A stretch of 37,605 bases of DNA, taken from a virus. A program made the translations under genes and the position numbers. The DNA lies in the IMG/VR virus record IMGVR_UViG_3300036850_000020, positions 1 to 37,605 of that record. One strand, written 5' to 3'. The notes beneath the pieces are model-generated. The model made no database searches. It was given only the letters and a program-made list of their open reading frames with translations, and was not told where the DNA came from. Below, in pieces: positions 4,394 to 32,250 of the stretch (its first letter is position 1; the number at the start of each line of letters is the position of its first letter).

Positions 4394-5632
4394 ATGGCAA
4401 CTGCTACCGAGCTGGGGACCCAGCTCACCACCAAGCGTCAGGAGCATGGCGCTTGGCTCGCCCAGTTCAAGAAGGGCGACGCCTACGACATGCCCGCCGA
4501 GAAGGTCGCAGAGTTCCACACTCGAAGCGACGAACTCAAGGCGCTTCAGGAGTCGTGGGAAACCGCGCTCCAGGTCGAGAAGTCAGCCGCCGAGAACGAA
4601 GCCAAGCTCGCGCCGCAGGGCACGATCGCGGCCAACAAGGGCGGTGAATCGAACATCGAGCACAAGGAAGTCACCGGTACACTCCAGACCAAGGCGCAGT
4701 TCAATGCCGCCTTCAAGTCGGCGTTCGAGAAGAACGCGGACACACTCAAGACCATCGCGGCCGGTGGCCGAGGCGTGGTCCGGTTCGAGCTGCAGACGGG
4801 TCTCAAGACCCTGCTCCAGACGACCGCCCACGCACCACAGGCCGATCGCCGCGGCACGTTCGAGTCGGCCCTCTTCTTCGGTGACACCGAAGACCTGTTC
4901 CCGCACGGCTCGACGGACTCGAAGTCGATCGAGTATTACATCCAGACGACGGACACCGACAACGCGGCCGCCGTTGCTCAGGGCTCGGCGCCGACCGATT
5001 CGGCATTCGCCTGGACGTTGACGACTGATCCGGTGGAGACCGTCTCGACGTGGATCCCGATGACCCATGAAGCGGTCGCGGACAACCCGCGGCTACAGTC
5101 GACGGTCGAAGGGATGCTGGCTCGCCGACTCCAGAAGAAGTCCAACAACCTCATCCTAGCGGGCGATGGTGTCACCCCGAACCCCACAGGCGTGTTCATC
5201 CGCACCGGCTTCCAGACGCAGGCGCTCGGCGCTGATCCGCGCTTCGACGCGGTTCACAAGGCGATGACCAAGGTCGACGTGACCGGCGACGCCACCACGA
5301 ACGCCATCTTCATGCATCCGACCGACTGGGAAACCCTTCGGCTCACCCGGACGATCGATGGCATCTATATCCTCGGCAATCCTGGTGACGCAGGCGAGCG
5401 TCGTCTGTGGGGCTTGCCGGTCAATCTGACGACAGGCATCGGCTCGGCCGGTACCGCGGGCGTGGGCGACACGACCTACGCCGAAGTCGTCGACCGCGAA
5501 GGGCTGGTCGTGGAGATCAGCACTGAACATTCGACCTACTTCACCGAGCGCAAGGTCGCGCTCCTGCTGTACCGCCGGTTCGCGGTGGCCGACTACCGGC
5601 CGAGCGCGTTCGCGACGGTCACCGGGCTGTAG
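4394..5632 (+). CDS. Major capsid protein (HK97 fold)
   Basis: This 412-residue shell protein follows the protease, as expected. The N-terminal 100 or so residues are charged and helical (delta/scaffold domain). The rest carries HK97-capsid features such as the tail AVADYRPSAFATVTG and the segments FFGDTEDLFPHG, MTHEAVADNP and LAGDGVTPNPTGVF. The ATG at 4394 is preferred because GGAGA lies 5-9 bases upstream. The in-frame GTG at 4382 has no such site. High expression is expected, and the hairpin just upstream may help set the level. Confidence 0.95.
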   Translation: MATATELGTQLTTKRQEHGAWLAQFKKGDAYDMPAEKVAEFHTRSDELKALQESWETALQVEKSAAENEAKLAPQGTIAANKGGESNIEHKEVTGTLQTKAQFNAAFKSAFEKNADTLKTIAAGGRGVVRFELQTGLKTLLQTTAHAPQADRRGTFESALFFGDTEDLFPHGSTDSKSIEYYIQTTDTDNAAAVAQGSAPTDSAFAWTLTTDPVETVSTWIPMTHEAVADNPRLQSTVEGMLARRLQKKSNNLILAGDGVTPNPTGVFIRTGFQTQALGADPRFDAVHKAMTKVDVTGDATTNAIFMHPTDWETLRLTRTIDGIYILGNPGDAGERRLWGLPVNLTTGIGSAGTAGVGDTTYAEVVDREGLVVEISTEHSTYFTERKVALLLYRRFAVADYRPSAFATVTGL

Positions 5633-6793: not shown

Positions 6794-7402
6794 ATGGCAA
6801 CGGCTATCGGTACATACGCGACCACGGCTCTCGCCAAGGAAGCGATGGGCATCACGAACGCGACCGACGACACCCTCATCGGCAAGCTCGTTGATCGGGT
6901 GAACGGCTGGATCGAGTGGCGCGTGGGCCGGGTGCTCGCGCCCATCGCCTCGACTACCTATACCTATGACGGCAACGACACAAACCGGCTGTCCGTTGTG
7001 GCTGGTGTCCGCACTGTCACGGCCTTGACCGTCGCTCCGTCCACCGGGGCTACTGCTGTGGCGGTTCCCGCCGCCGACATCTTCATCCGGCCCGTTACCC
7101 AGGAGCGACTGACGGGCTGGCCGGGTGAGGAGATCTGGATCTCCGACCGGCCCACGGGTTCGGTGTCGATCTTCTCCAAGGGTTTCGGGACAGTCGCCGT
7201 GACCGGGACGTTCGGTTGGGTGGCGATCCCCGATGAGATCACGTCCATTGCCCTGACCTGTGTCGCTGCGGCCTGGGCGCGGCGCAAGGAAGGCAACGTC
7301 GAGATTGTGGAGATCGGGCCTGACGGGGACCGGACGTTCATTGCCTACCTCAGCCGCGAGGAACGGCGAGTGCTTGAGATGTACACGGCCCATCCCCGAT
7401 GA
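6794..7402 (+). CDS. Head-tail connector (adaptor) protein
   Basis: This 202-residue protein begins MATAIGTYATTALAKEAMGI. It has the helical N-terminal half, long central beta region and C-terminal helices (EITSIALTCVAAAWARRKEG) typical of HK97 gp6-like adaptors that sit under the portal. The first gene of the neck block is expected here. GAGG about 8 bases upstream of ATG supports the start. The 78 bases before it hold no gene. They contain TATAAA (6744-6749) without a matching -35 box. Confidence 0.75.
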   Translation: MATAIGTYATTALAKEAMGITNATDDTLIGKLVDRVNGWIEWRVGRVLAPIASTTYTYDGNDTNRLSVVAGVRTVTALTVAPSTGATAVAVPAADIFIRPVTQERLTGWPGEEIWISDRPTGSVSIFSKGFGTVAVTGTFGWVAIPDEITSIALTCVAAAWARRKEGNVEIVEIGPDGDRTFIAYLSREERRVLEMYTAHPR

Positions 7403-17011: not shown

Positions 17012-18252
17012 TCGCTCGGCGTTTACTCATGGGCGGCGGCGGCGCCCTCACAGTCCTGTCAGTCGCCGAGTTCGAGGTACTCGCCACGCCCAAGGGTGGT
17101 TGGACGTGGTTTAACGACCCGCGGGCAATCTACTACAACGGCAAAACGTACTTCGGCTACATCGACGGATCAGGTGATCCGTACGCCGCGCAGTATGTTC
17201 ACTCGACCGGGCTGACGAGCACACCAGCTCGCCTTTATCCCGCCGCTTCGCCCTTCCAAGTCGATGACCACGACAACCCCGCGTTCCTGATCCGCGACTC
17301 GGACAAGCGGATCCTGGCGTTTTTCTCGACCCACTTTGGGACCGATCAGTACATCAACATCTCGACCAACCCCGAAGACGCGACTGTCTGGGACGGACCG
17401 ACCAACATCCGCTCGGTCATTGGCGGGAACATCACGACCTATGCCAATCCGGTCCAACTCACGGGAGAAGCGAACGACCCAATTTACTTCTTCTTCCGCG
17501 ACCACTACGACGGGACAAATACCGAGTGGGGGTACTCCAAGTCGACTGACGGCGGGGTGACGTGGGGCTCGAAGGTGTCCGTCGTCCGGCTGAACTACAC
17601 GAAGAACGTCCCCAACGGCGATAGCCGGATCGACTTCGTGGGGAGTCCGCACGCCGACAACTCGGTCGAGCCGATCGAGCACTCGATCTATCACTGGTAC
17701 TACCAGGGCGGGGCATGGTTCAAGAGCGATGGAAGCGCGGCCGGAAGCCTTCCTCTCGCCGCATCCTCGCTCACCAAGGTCTACTCGGGAGCCGGAGCCG
17801 CGGATGATGCCTGGATGTGGGATATCGCTATCGGCGGGGACGGGCGCCCGCGGATCGCCTACGCCACTTTCCCCTCGACCTCGGACCACCGCTACAACTA
17901 CGCCCGCTGGACCGGGACGGGGTGGGTCACCAGTCAGATCGCGGTCGGCGGCAACCACATCTACGGCGACGCGACCCAGGCGTACTACTCAGGCGGAGTC
18001 GTTATCGATCAGTCCAATGTGAACGTGGTCTATGCCTCGATCTACATTTCGGCCGGACGATGGGACATCTTCCGCTACGAGTCATCCGACAACGGCCTGA
18101 CCTGGGTTGGCACCGCGCTCACGTCATCCGGCAAGAACGTCCGACCTGTCTCGGTTCGTAACCACGGCGCCGAACTCCAGGTCCTCTGGATGGACGGTAC
18201 CTACACGACCTACACCAACTATTCCGTTGGGACGACGGGCGCGGGGGTCTAG
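17008..18252 (+). CDS. BNR_4-type beta-propeller tail protein
   Basis: This 414-residue protein overlaps the previous gene by ATGA. The first conserved region (GWTWFNDPRAIYYNGKTYFG, from residue 31), DDHDNPAFLIRDSDKRI (about 86-102) and Asp-box-like segments SKSTDGGVTW and ESSDNGLTW match the BNR_4 family of beta-propellers linked to polysaccharide binding or cleavage. In the tail block it would bind or degrade host glycan. Whether it is catalytic cannot be told. Its last 129 bases are overlapped, on the other strand, by the glycosyltransferase gene. Confidence 0.78.
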   Translation: MIARRLLMGGGGALTVLSVAEFEVLATPKGGWTWFNDPRAIYYNGKTYFGYIDGSGDPYAAQYVHSTGLTSTPARLYPAASPFQVDDHDNPAFLIRDSDKRILAFFSTHFGTDQYINISTNPEDATVWDGPTNIRSVIGGNITTYANPVQLTGEANDPIYFFFRDHYDGTNTEWGYSKSTDGGVTWGSKVSVVRLNYTKNVPNGDSRIDFVGSPHADNSVEPIEHSIYHWYYQGGAWFKSDGSAAGSLPLAASSLTKVYSGAGAADDAWMWDIAIGGDGRPRIAYATFPSTSDHRYNYARWTGTGWVTSQIAVGGNHIYGDATQAYYSGGVVIDQSNVNVVYASIYISAGRWDIFRYESSDNGLTWVGTALTSSGKNVRPVSVRNHGAELQVLWMDGTYTTYTNYSVGTTGAGV

Positions 18253-19149
18253 TAGTCGCTCGCGGACCAGATCCGCGGCCATCCCCACGACGACGAGCCC
18301 CGGAATGGGGATCGTCAGTGACAGCGCGGTCAGGGGCAGCGAGGCAAGGGCAGGCAACGCAAGCACGGCGTAGTACGGCTGGGTGAACGGCCACAGGACA
18401 GGCACGATCAACCACGCCGCTCGTTTCCGTCCAAGGAGGGCGAGACAGACGAGCGCCACGGGGATGAGCAGGGGCACGGCGGTCGCGGAGAAGCCCGAAT
18501 CCGCCTGATCGGCAAACGTCTGCGATACCGTCTCTCGCGCGGCGATGAACGCCGGCCACGCGAGGAACGGCGCGGTTATGAGGAGCAAAACCCCCGACGC
18601 GACCAACGAGCGCCACCGTCCAAGCAGGAGCAGCGGCAGGACGGAGTAGATCCGGGCCGACACAGCGATGGCTTCCCCGGCCATCCCTCCACGAACCATG
18701 AGCGCGAGCGCGAACACGGCGCCGTTCCCTGCGGCCACCCCGAGGACGATCGGCGGGAACAGCAGCCACCACAGCGGGAGGTTCAGGCGGCGGATGGCGT
18801 AGACGGCTGACAGCGCGGATATCCCGACCCACGTGACCGAGATCAGCGCATCGGACATCCAGGCGAAGGGTAGGTACAGGAGCAGGCTCGGCGGCGGGGC
18901 GGCGTACGCGATATTGCCCTGTTGCAACCACGGGTCGCCTCCTGACAGAAGGGCCTGCGCCGCGTGGGCGTAGACGACGGCATCCCAGCCGAATGGCAAG
19001 CCGATGCGGATGGGAACCGCGACGAACCAAGTCGATACGCCCGCGAAGGCAGTGATGAGCACGATCCGCGTGATGCGGAATATCGCCCCTCCGGGGGCGG
19101 CTTCACTGTTTCCGGTGCCTGCCCACACCCTCCAATGCTCACGAGTCAT
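18124..19149 (-). CDS. GT87-like integral membrane glycosyltransferase
   Basis: This 341-residue protein has at least eight hydrophobic segments (from about 28-47 through 281-293). The loop after the first helix contains GWDAVVYAHAAQALLSGGDP (acidic D56, Y60, then GDPW), and AYAAPPPSLLLYLPFAWM follows at 81-98. This is the pattern of polyprenyl-phosphate-sugar-dependent GT87/DUF2029 glycosyltransferases. It probably adds a sugar to a surface glycan outside the membrane. It lies 97 bases behind the repressor stop on the same strand, so it could be co-expressed during lysogeny. The last 42 or so residues overlap the tail gene and look like an extension past an ancestral stop. No good ribosome site or TANNNT box precedes ATG 19149. 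Confidence 0.72.
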   Translation of the reverse strand: MTREHWRVWAGTGNSEAAPGGAIFRITRIVLITAFAGVSTWFVAVPIRIGLPFGWDAVVYAHAAQALLSGGDPWLQQGNIAYAAPPPSLLLYLPFAWMSDALISVTWVGISALSAVYAIRRLNLPLWWLLFPPIVLGVAAGNGAVFALALMVRGGMAGEAIAVSARIYSVLPLLLLGRWRSLVASGVLLLITAPFLAWPAFIAARETVSQTFADQADSGFSATAVPLLIPVALVCLALLGRKRAAWLIVPVLWPFTQPYYAVLALPALASLPLTALSLTIPIPGLVVVGMAADLVRERLLDPRARRPNGIVGVGRVGTVHPEDLEFGAVVTNRDRSDVLAG

Positions 19150-19209: not shown

Positions 19210-19422
19210 ATGTCTAGGCGTCCCGTCAATGATCCGGTGCATCCGGTCACTCAGATCGAGGCCGCTTTCTACGAGGCGGTCGAGCAGGCAGCTTATCGGG
19301 CGACTCGGGAGGCTCTGAGAGCGCCCGTGTCACGCCAGCCACAATTGCGTTGTTCGCCAACGCTTCGAGGCGCGCCAGCAAAGCCGTCATCCGTTCGTCG
19401 TTCCGGTCCAGACGACCGATGA
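19210..19422 (+). CDS. Possible small protein overlapping the repressor gene end
   Basis: A 70-residue reading starts at ATG 19210 after AGAGGGGG (19197-19204). Its first 35 residues (VTQIEAAFYEAVEQAAYRAT near the start) look helical and natural. The rest is Arg/Ser/Pro-rich and lies antisense to the repressor gene. It could be a genuine small gene that overlaps the repressor 3' end, or chance. Confidence is low. Confidence 0.3.
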   Translation: MSRRPVNDPVHPVTQIEAAFYEAVEQAAYRATREALRAPVSRQPQLRCSPTLRGAPAKPSSVRRSGPDDR

Positions 19423-19729
19423 GCCGGATGATCGCATCCTCCGTCGATGTCGGAGTCTGCTCCCGCCCTTGGTAGGCATCCCACAAGTCGCGGATCGGGA
19501 TATTCAATATCTTCCCTACCCGCTCAAGGGTCCACGACGAAGGCGTCTGCTGGTTTGTGAACCATAGGTAGAACGTGCCTCGGCTGACCTTCGCCTCACG
19601 CGCCAGGCGGCTCATCGTCATGCCTCGGATGCGCGCCATTCCCGCACGCATGGTCGCTTCGAGTAGCCGACCCGGAGATTCCGGGTCCTGCGCCGCGTAA
19701 AGCTCGTCAACGATCTCGTCGTCGGGCAT
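19247..19729 (-). CDS. HTH repressor (CI-like immunity regulator)
   Basis: This 160-residue protein starts at the ATG at 19729 (complement) after GGTGAG. Longer in-frame starts would read through the promoter and are rejected. An XRE-type helix-turn-helix lies at about 35-85 (MSRLAREAKVSRGTFYLWFTN). A probable coiled coil at 95-130 would give dimers or higher oligomers. The basic C-terminus is RRKRPRSE. There is no LexA-like peptidase domain, so RecA-triggered self-cleavage is unlikely. It is divergent from the Cro-like gene across a palindromic operator region and probably maintains lysogeny. Confidence 0.82.
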   Translation of the reverse strand: MPDDEIVDELYAAQDPESPGRLLEATMRAGMARIRGMTMSRLAREAKVSRGTFYLWFTNQQTPSSWTLERVGKILNIPIRDLWDAYQGREQTPTSTEDAIIRLIGRLDRNDERMTALLARLEALANNAIVAGVTRALSEPPESPDKLPARPPRRKRPRSE

Positions 19730-19755
19730 CCATCTCACCACATGTCGCGCGCGCT

Positions 19756-19771
19756 GTTGACAGTAGTCAAC
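19756..19771. promoter_or_regulatory. Palindromic operator in the immunity switch
   Basis: GTTGAC-AGTA-GTCAAC is a perfect 6-bp inverted repeat with a 4-bp spacer. It overlaps the proposed leftward -10 box (19760-19765), so a protein bound here would block the repressor promoter. It shares the core TTGAC with the nearby -35 repeats. Confidence 0.7.
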
Positions 19772-19789
19772 AACAAGAAGGGTTGTCAA
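19760..19789 (-). promoter_or_regulatory. Leftward (repressor) promoter
   Basis: On the minus strand TTGACA (complement of 19784-19789) is followed, after 18 bases, by TACTGT (complement of 19760-19765). Transcription would start near 19752, giving a leader of about 22 bases with a GGTGAG ribosome site before the repressor ATG. It would also read toward the glycosyltransferase gene. Confidence 0.6.
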
Positions 19790-19818
19790 TACAAATCTTA
19801 GCCGACCGGTATTGACAA
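19783..19818. promoter_or_regulatory. Inverted repeat carrying both -35 boxes
   Basis: TTGTCAAT (19783-19790) and ATTGACAA (19811-19818) are exact inverted copies 20 bases apart. Each contains the TTGACA -35 box of one divergent promoter. A regulator bound across this element could control both directions at once. Confidence 0.62.
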
Positions 19819-19841
19819 GCGCCACCGGACAGGCTGATACT
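19812..19841 (+). promoter_or_regulatory. Rightward (early) promoter, leaderless for the Cro-like gene
   Basis: TTGACA (19812-19817), an 18-base spacer and GATACT (19836-19841) form the promoter. The ATG follows 6 bases later at 19848, so the message would begin at the start codon. Confidence 0.66.
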
Positions 19842-19854
19842 GTCGTCATGACAG
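19840..19854. promoter_or_regulatory. Palindrome over the Cro-like start codon
   Basis: CTGTC-GTCAT-GACAG is a perfect 5-bp inverted repeat with a 5-bp centre. It contains the ATG and would overlap the predicted rightward transcription start. A repressor bound here would block initiation. Confidence 0.55.
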
Positions 19855-20066
19855 ATCGAACGGTTCCCGCGACACCCTGGTATGAACGTGCCGAGGAGCG
19901 GGGGATCAGCATGGAATGGCTCGCCGCGATGACCGGCGTCAGTTGGTCGACGGTCTATGCGTACAAGATGGGCCGTCGAAAGGTGCAGCAGTCCTGGCTC
20001 GACAAGGTAGAACTGCTCATCACCGCGCATGACAATATGCCGGGTTCTGGAGTCAAGGTGTCATGA
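19848..20066 (+). CDS. Cro-like HTH regulator
   Basis: This 72-residue protein is divergent from the repressor. The HTH region (about 23-55: MEWLAAMTGVSWSTVYAYKM, followed by GRRKVQQSWLDKVE) is typical of small Cro/XRE-like DNA-binding proteins. It probably represses the leftward promoter early in infection. ATG 19848 is preferred because it lies 6 bases after a promoter -10 box. The longer TTG 19812 start would begin inside the -35 box. It overlaps the next gene by ATGA, so it leads the early operon. Confidence 0.8.
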   Translation: MTDRTVPATPWYERAEERGISMEWLAAMTGVSWSTVYAYKMGRRKVQQSWLDKVELLITAHDNMPGSGVKVS

Positions 20067-31581: not shown

Positions 31582-31901
31582 GCGGACGTCGCGTTCTCAA
31601 GTTCACATTGGCCGTCGAAGCGGTTACGGTCATCGAGACGGCGGATGAGCTGCGGTTCCTAGCCGTTGGCGCGCAGTATGGCAACATCGTTGTGTGGGCC
31701 GAGGCCAGCGTGGGGTCCGGCGTTCGCACCACGCTCCTAGCCGTGATGACGGGTGAAACCGTCCCAGACGACGCGGAATACATCGGCACCGGACAACTCG
31801 GCGGCTGGCGCCACGACGAGCCACCCTACACCGTTGTCCACGTCTACCGCTCCACCCGCTCTACCGATGGAGCCGATACCCCGTCAAGTAACCGGCCGTG
31901 A
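31578..31901 (+). CDS. Small conserved beta-rich phage protein (DUF7352-like)
   Basis: This 107-residue protein reads KFTLAVEAVTVIETAD, then LRFLAVGAQYGNIVVWAEAS and EYIGTGQLG followed by VVHVYRS. The order and motifs resemble a small family common in actinobacteriophages (DUF7352). The function is not known. The match is by memory of the pattern, not by search. Confidence 0.62.
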   Translation: MSGRRVLKFTLAVEAVTVIETADELRFLAVGAQYGNIVVWAEASVGSGVRTTLLAVMTGETVPDDAEYIGTGQLGGWRHDEPPYTVVHVYRSTRSTDGADTPSSNRP

Positions 31902-32044
31902 CCCACCTCGCCGCCGCTCTCCTGGGTTACCTCCTCGGTATCTACTCCCTGGCCGTCCTGCGTCTCCTCCAGGGCTTGGTATGGCGTCGGAACGGCGCTC
32001 GCCCCGGAGATCCGAGCGCGGAGCCGGAAGTGTTGTTCGTCTAA
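31898..32044 (+). CDS. Small membrane protein
   Basis: This 48-residue GTG-started protein has one hydrophobic helix (about 3-27: HLAAALLGYLLGIYSLAVLR). A Pro/Glu-rich end follows. The TAATG junction couples it to the LuxR-like gene. Confidence 0.55.
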   Translation: MTHLAAALLGYLLGIYSLAVLRLLQGLVWRRNGARPGDPSAEPEVLFV

Positions 32045-32250
32045 TGCCAGCCCGCCAGGATCAGCCGACTCAAGCGGAACTGCGCGCGTTGCGGGCGTAC
32101 CTGGAAGCGGGATCAGCAAGGGCGGCGGCACTCGAAATCGGTTGTTCCGAGCAGACGGTCAAGAACCACCTTCACACCCTGCGTCAGAAGTACGGCGTCA
32201 AGCGGACATTCCAGGTCGTCTATCTGCTGCGCGATAAGCTGGCGGCGTGA
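32044..32250 (+). CDS. Small LuxR-type helix-turn-helix protein
   Basis: This 68-residue protein is almost entirely a GerE/LuxR-type HTH (ARAAALEIGCSEQTVKNHLH, then TLRQKYGVKRTFQVVYLLR). It has no sensor domain. A stand-alone HTH of this kind may act as a late-gene or accessory regulator. It lies near the boundary before the lysis region. Confidence 0.78.
   Translation: MPARQDQPTQAELRALRAYLEAGSARAAALEIGCSEQTVKNHLHTLRQKYGVKRTFQVVYLLRDKLAA

Follow-up and report, generated by a model that had tools for sequence, protein, structure and literature searches.

A putative repressor/Cro-type control region with operator-like palindromes in an uncultured, probably actinobacterial phage

Introduction

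Two opposed regulator genes lying 118 bases apart in an uncultured virus raise the question of whether the DNA between them is the control region of an immunity switch, and which of its symmetric elements would act as operators. The window analyzed here is the whole IMG/VR virus record IMGVR_UViG_3300036850_000020 (37,605 bases, 64% G+C). Judging from its sequence, we consider it likely that this region controls a divergent repressor/Cro-type immunity switch, with the operator roles proposed below. The kind of switch is an ordinary one that is already known; the sequence is new.

Gene layout and the two regulators

Profile searches with Pfam and PHROG placed terminase, portal, protease, major capsid, tape measure, and tail genes in the left part of the contig. 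To the right of the tail genes lies a leftward pair, consisting of the gene at 18124-19149 and the repressor gene at 19247-19729. The rightward early genes begin with that of a 72-aa Cro-like protein and also encode RecE, an HNH endonuclease, methyltransferases, and a replication-initiation protein. The host is probably an actinobacterium, as suggested by the G+C content and by distant matches to actinophage genes. Among the right-hand genes, 31753-32250 (plus strand) encodes a small protein whose C-terminal part resembles a LysR/GerE-type HTH (Pfam match below threshold); it could be a late regulator. The features of the control region and its flanking genes are as follows.

19247-19729, minus strand: repressor-like HTH protein, 160 aa, ATG at 19729 (translation, PHROG, Pfam)
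19755-19772, no strand: palindrome A, TGTTGAC-agta-GTCAACA, 7-4-7, centered on the leftward -10 box (shuffles; geometry as in the uncultured relative L004)
19760-19765, minus strand: leftward (repressor) -10 box TACTGT, read as ACAGTA on the plus strand (promoter scan)
19783-19818, no strand: inverted repeat TTGTCAATAC-N16-GTATTGACAA, perfect 10 + 10, with both -35 boxes inside
19784-19789, minus strand: leftward (repressor) -35 box TTGACA, spacer 18
19812-19817, plus strand: rightward -35 box TTGACA, spacer 18
19836-19841, plus strand: rightward -10 box GATACT (promoter scan)
19840-19854, no strand: palindrome C, CTGTC-gtcat-GACAG, over the predicted start site and start codon (near chance)
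19848-20066, plus strand: Cro-like protein, 72 aa, predicted small XRE/Cro-type HTH fold (Pfam, AlphaFold2, Foldseek)
19930-19941, no strand: second TGAC-N4-GTCA palindrome, inside the Cro-like gene, 172 bases from palindrome A

The repressor-like protein matched PHROG_8 (transcriptional regulator, 3.5e-6) and phrog_4268 (repressor, 7.6e-5), and its Pfam matches to TetR_N (7.3e-5) and HTH_26 (2.4e-4) each fell slightly below the curated cut-off. The motif GGTGAG, resembling a ribosome-binding site, lies immediately 5' of its ATG. No homologs of the repressor were found in viral contigs, species genomes, or GenBank phages, and its operator is therefore not footprintable by conservation within its own family. 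Its AlphaFold model was too poor (pLDDT 42) and was discarded, and no solved structure of a close relative was found for either regulator. The Cro-like protein had sub-threshold Pfam matches to HTH_3 (0.0037) and HTH_26 (0.0054) and is predicted to form a small four-helix HTH fold (AlphaFold2 pLDDT 81). Its model resembles XRE controllers, reaching a Foldseek probability of 1.00 against C.Kpn2I, C.BclI, and SinR with E-values that were all at least 0.001. Homologs of this protein could not be confirmed among viral contigs or GenBank phages, the sole weak phage match being to Acetobacter phiAP1 (E 0.06).

Promoters and symmetric elements

In a scan for TTGACA/TATAAT-like promoters, the rightward TTGACA-18-GATACT and the leftward TTGACA-18-TACTGT were the two best sigma-70-type promoters on both strands of the 37.6 kb, the leftward one ranking second. 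Three of the five TTGACA hexamers in the whole window fall inside a single 61-base stretch of the control region. Leftward transcription is predicted to start near 19753, which would give the repressor mRNA a leader of about 24 nt. The rightward start is predicted at 19848, the A of the Cro-like ATG; because the rightward -10 box ends six bases 5' of this A, the Cro-like mRNA is predicted to be leaderless. No RNA hairpin was detected at the Cro start (z +0.8).

A preceding sequence-only reading had described the two -35 boxes as an exact inverted repeat, TTGTCAAT (19783-19790) and ATTGACAA (19811-19818), with 20 bases between the arms. This repeat is present as described and is even longer, with perfect 10-base arms TTGTCAATAC (19783-19792) and GTATTGACAA (19809-19818) separated by 16 bases. 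In dinucleotide shuffles of 19730-19860, the long repeat had P=0.0025. The fair null for symmetry is given by shuffles that keep the two -35 hexamers fixed, and here the 10-base arms had P=0.015. The palindrome reported over the leftward -10 box, GTTGACAGTAGTCAAC at 19756-19771, likewise proved correct: it covers TACTGT and extends to the 7-4-7 form (palindrome A). A palindrome with 7-base arms had P=0.038 in the dinucleotide shuffles of the same region, and one centered on the leftward -10 box had P=0.004 with the hexamers fixed. Both the -35 repeat and palindrome A thus moderately exceed chance, and palindrome A appears to be the best operator candidate.

The palindrome noted at the rightward start (palindrome C) does exist at 19840-19854, overlapping the ATG at 19848 together with two bases at the end of the rightward -10 box, but its significance is near chance: with the -35 hexamers fixed, a 5-arm palindrome around the start codon had P=0.05, and one anywhere in the region had P=0.42. 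Its half-sites are oriented opposite to those on the leftward -10 box. As a candidate operator overlapping a promoter, palindrome A, at the -10 box of the leftward promoter, is accordingly above chance, and the rightward candidate is weak. Palindrome A occurs in a single copy, and the -35 regions fit its two-sided form poorly (7/8 bases on the right, 5/8 on the left). Its half-site geometry, TGAC-N4-GTCA, was observed three times in the window versus 0.72 expected, and the copy at 19930-19941 is a possible extra operator.

It had also been suggested, from the common TTGAC core, that one regulator can bind both -35 regions. This core is weak evidence because TTGACA is the -35 consensus needed by the sigma factor; the four extra bases in each arm (P about 0.015) do favor the suggestion. 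DNA searches of viral contigs for the exact inverted repeat, or for palindrome A plus TTGTCAA, gave 16 and 14 matches, which are apparently unrelated. By eye, two of the seven matches with ORFs listed (L010 and L012) have the repeat 5' of an HTH-like gene, indicating that mirrored TTGACA boxes recur independently. The exact mirrored arms TTGTCAATAC and GTATTGACAA lie at 1304-1335 in L010 and at 2419-2457 in L012. In another apparently unrelated phage (L032), tandem palindromes GTTGACTAATGTCAAC and GTTGACTATTGTCAAC at 7271-7311, upstream of a small rightward gene, might form a GTTGAC-N4-GTCAAC operator pair.

Comparison with related and studied phages

Among the relatives reached via RecE, the uncultured phage L004 (IMGVR_UViG_3300046817_000871) shares 67% identity with the window in RecE and 59% in the terminase, and the two Cro-like proteins are 43% identical over 40 aa. 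A divergent pair occupies the matching position upstream of RecE in L004, its Cro-like gene is again predicted to be leaderless, and it has TGAC-N4-GTCA palindromes with the half-site and spacing of palindrome A. Three of these occur in its 12.9 kb, whereas shuffles gave at most two (0/200 reached three). The two intergenic copies (5022-5033 and 5086-5097) each lie on a TTGACA -35 box, and L004 differs from the window in having its palindromes on both -35 boxes and not on the -10 box. In addition, the L004 repressor is not recognizably homologous to that of the window.

The gene order of repressor, HTH gene, RecE, and RecT is common to the window layout and to Arthrobacter phages of the genera Coralvirus and Kuleanavirus. 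Polka (MH834624), Amelia, Melons, Daob, Marchesin (OR777151), and Cupello carry a leftward integrase and repressor (or, instead of the repressor, an unnamed protein), together with rightward small genes, RecE, and RecT. The islands conserved between the two genera are their TAGACG palindromes, which cover the predicted leftward promoter and also occur in the leader that separates the rightward promoter region from the HTH gene. TAGACG is over-represented about fourfold in the 12.8 kb of Polka and about threefold in that of Marchesin, whose candidate -35 boxes carry this half-site. These phages therefore resemble the window in having palindromes over the predicted leftward promoter and upstream of the rightward HTH gene and a repeated half-site in candidate -35 boxes; they differ in that the half-site is TAGACG and not TTGAC and that an integrase adjoins the repressor. 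No relatedness was detectable between their proteins and those of the window. Taken with L004, the comparison indicates that palindromic operator-like sites across divergent repressor/HTH promoters are usual in the phages of the same layout examined. Outside the switch, Polka (L039) has TAGACG half-sites at 722, 1489-1617, 3666, and 12583, and the cluster at 1571-1617, between leftward genes 29 and 30, may hold further operators of the same repressor.

Several studied systems offer parallels. In the telomere phage PY54, Cro has a single binding site, a 16-bp palindrome adjoining the repressor gene, and the cro mRNA is leaderless (PMC4488713). The PY54 immB region shares with the window divergent repressor and Cro genes, a palindrome by the repressor, and a leaderless cro mRNA (predicted here); unlike the window, it has an unrelated host and unrelated proteins, its cI mRNA is also leaderless, and its prophage is a linear plasmid (PMC4488713). 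Staphylococcus phage Phi11, with three homologous 15-bp operators between cI and cro, resembles the window in its two divergent promoters between these genes and in having several operators (candidates in the window), but the window contains one clear full palindrome versus the three operators of Phi11 (PMC3991615). Mycobacteriophage L5 and other cluster A phages, which like the window have an actinophage repressor system, use a repressor monomer on a 13-bp asymmetric stoperator present in more than 20 copies (PMC9283540). A system of the stoperator type was rejected for the window on a count of the hexamer TGTCAA/TTGACA, which occurs only five times in 37.6 kb, fewer than expected by chance; the clear site in the window is also symmetric.

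Proposed mechanism and alternative explanations

In the reading that we favor, a divergent repressor/Cro-type immunity switch, the leftward promoter would make the repressor from a short-leader mRNA. The rightward promoter would give a leaderless message for the Cro-like protein and would also drive RecE and the other early genes. One HTH protein, or both, would bind palindrome A as a dimer, with half-sites 11 bases (one helical turn) apart in a palindrome of 16-18 bp, and block the leftward -10 box. The binder would most likely be the Cro-like protein shutting the repressor off, or else the repressor limiting its own expression. The repressor would turn the rightward promoter off, probably through the near-operator TGACAAGCGCCA at the rightward -35 box, and the circuit as a whole may be bistable.

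How much of the symmetry belongs to operators is a matter on which explanations diverge. Palindrome A might be the sole operator. In that case the mirroring of the -35 boxes, as well as palindrome C, would simply follow from the back-to-back placement of two strong consensus promoters. We regard this as a serious possibility that falls somewhat short of being probable. The TTGACA consensus accounts for six of the ten arm bases, the other four having P=0.015, palindrome C has P of about 0.05 locally, and the single 16-bp palindrome of PY54 Cro provides a precedent (PMC4488713). However, the -35 boxes of L004 each lie inside a full TGAC-N4-GTCA and the candidate -35 boxes of Marchesin carry TAGACG; phages of this sort therefore do place operators on -35 boxes. 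The opposite extreme is that the two -35 arms constitute one wide composite operator at which a single regulator (a dimer of dimers or a looped complex) switches both promoters. The perfect 10 + 10 arms with 16 bases between them and their shuffle statistics (P=0.0025 in plain shuffles and 0.015 once the boxes are fixed) speak for such an arrangement, which nevertheless seems rather improbable: the arm centers are separated by 26 bp (roughly 2.5 helical turns), whereas HTH dimers usually span one turn, and L004 and the Arthrobacter phages show local palindromes and no single wide repeat.

A different doubt concerns lysogeny itself. The region had been called a lysis-lysogeny switch; the part that stands is the divergent repressor/Cro control region, with two opposed HTH genes and the two best promoters, while the lysogeny part stays conjectural. 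No match to PF00589, PF00239, or PF13614 (integrase, resolvase, and ParA) was found by HMM search of the whole contig, which may be incomplete, and no tyrosine integrase was found in the related fragments L004 and L036. The slot downstream of the repressor, occupied by the integrase in Polka, holds here a 341-aa hydrophobic protein (18124-19149, minus strand) with no Pfam or PHROG match; inspection by eye suggests that it crosses the membrane several times and may be a GT-C type glycosyltransferase. The failure to detect tyrosine or serine recombinase and ParA genes and this exchange in the slot agree with a decayed or non-lysogenic circuit, in which no integration system exists and the HTH proteins merely time early expression. 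We judge such a circuit unlikely, though less so than the wide composite operator. Since the contig may be incomplete, the undetected integrase and ParA are no proof against temperate life, and the intact state of both genes, like the near-consensus sequence of both promoters, speaks against decay. Least probable of all, in our estimate, is an integrase-less actinobacterial phage family that combines TGAC-N4-GTCA operators merged into the -35 or -10 boxes, leaderless Cro mRNA, and non-integrated persistence; one half-site would then serve both the sigma factor and the repressor.

Implications

The general picture of repressor/Cro control is unchanged by this region, which contributes one further example, drawn from a phage lineage that is uncultured and probably actinobacterial. 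Its layout matches that of cultured Arthrobacter phages, whose TAGACG operators are readable by conservation, and its candidate operator TGAC-N4-GTCA is common to a relative and is testable.
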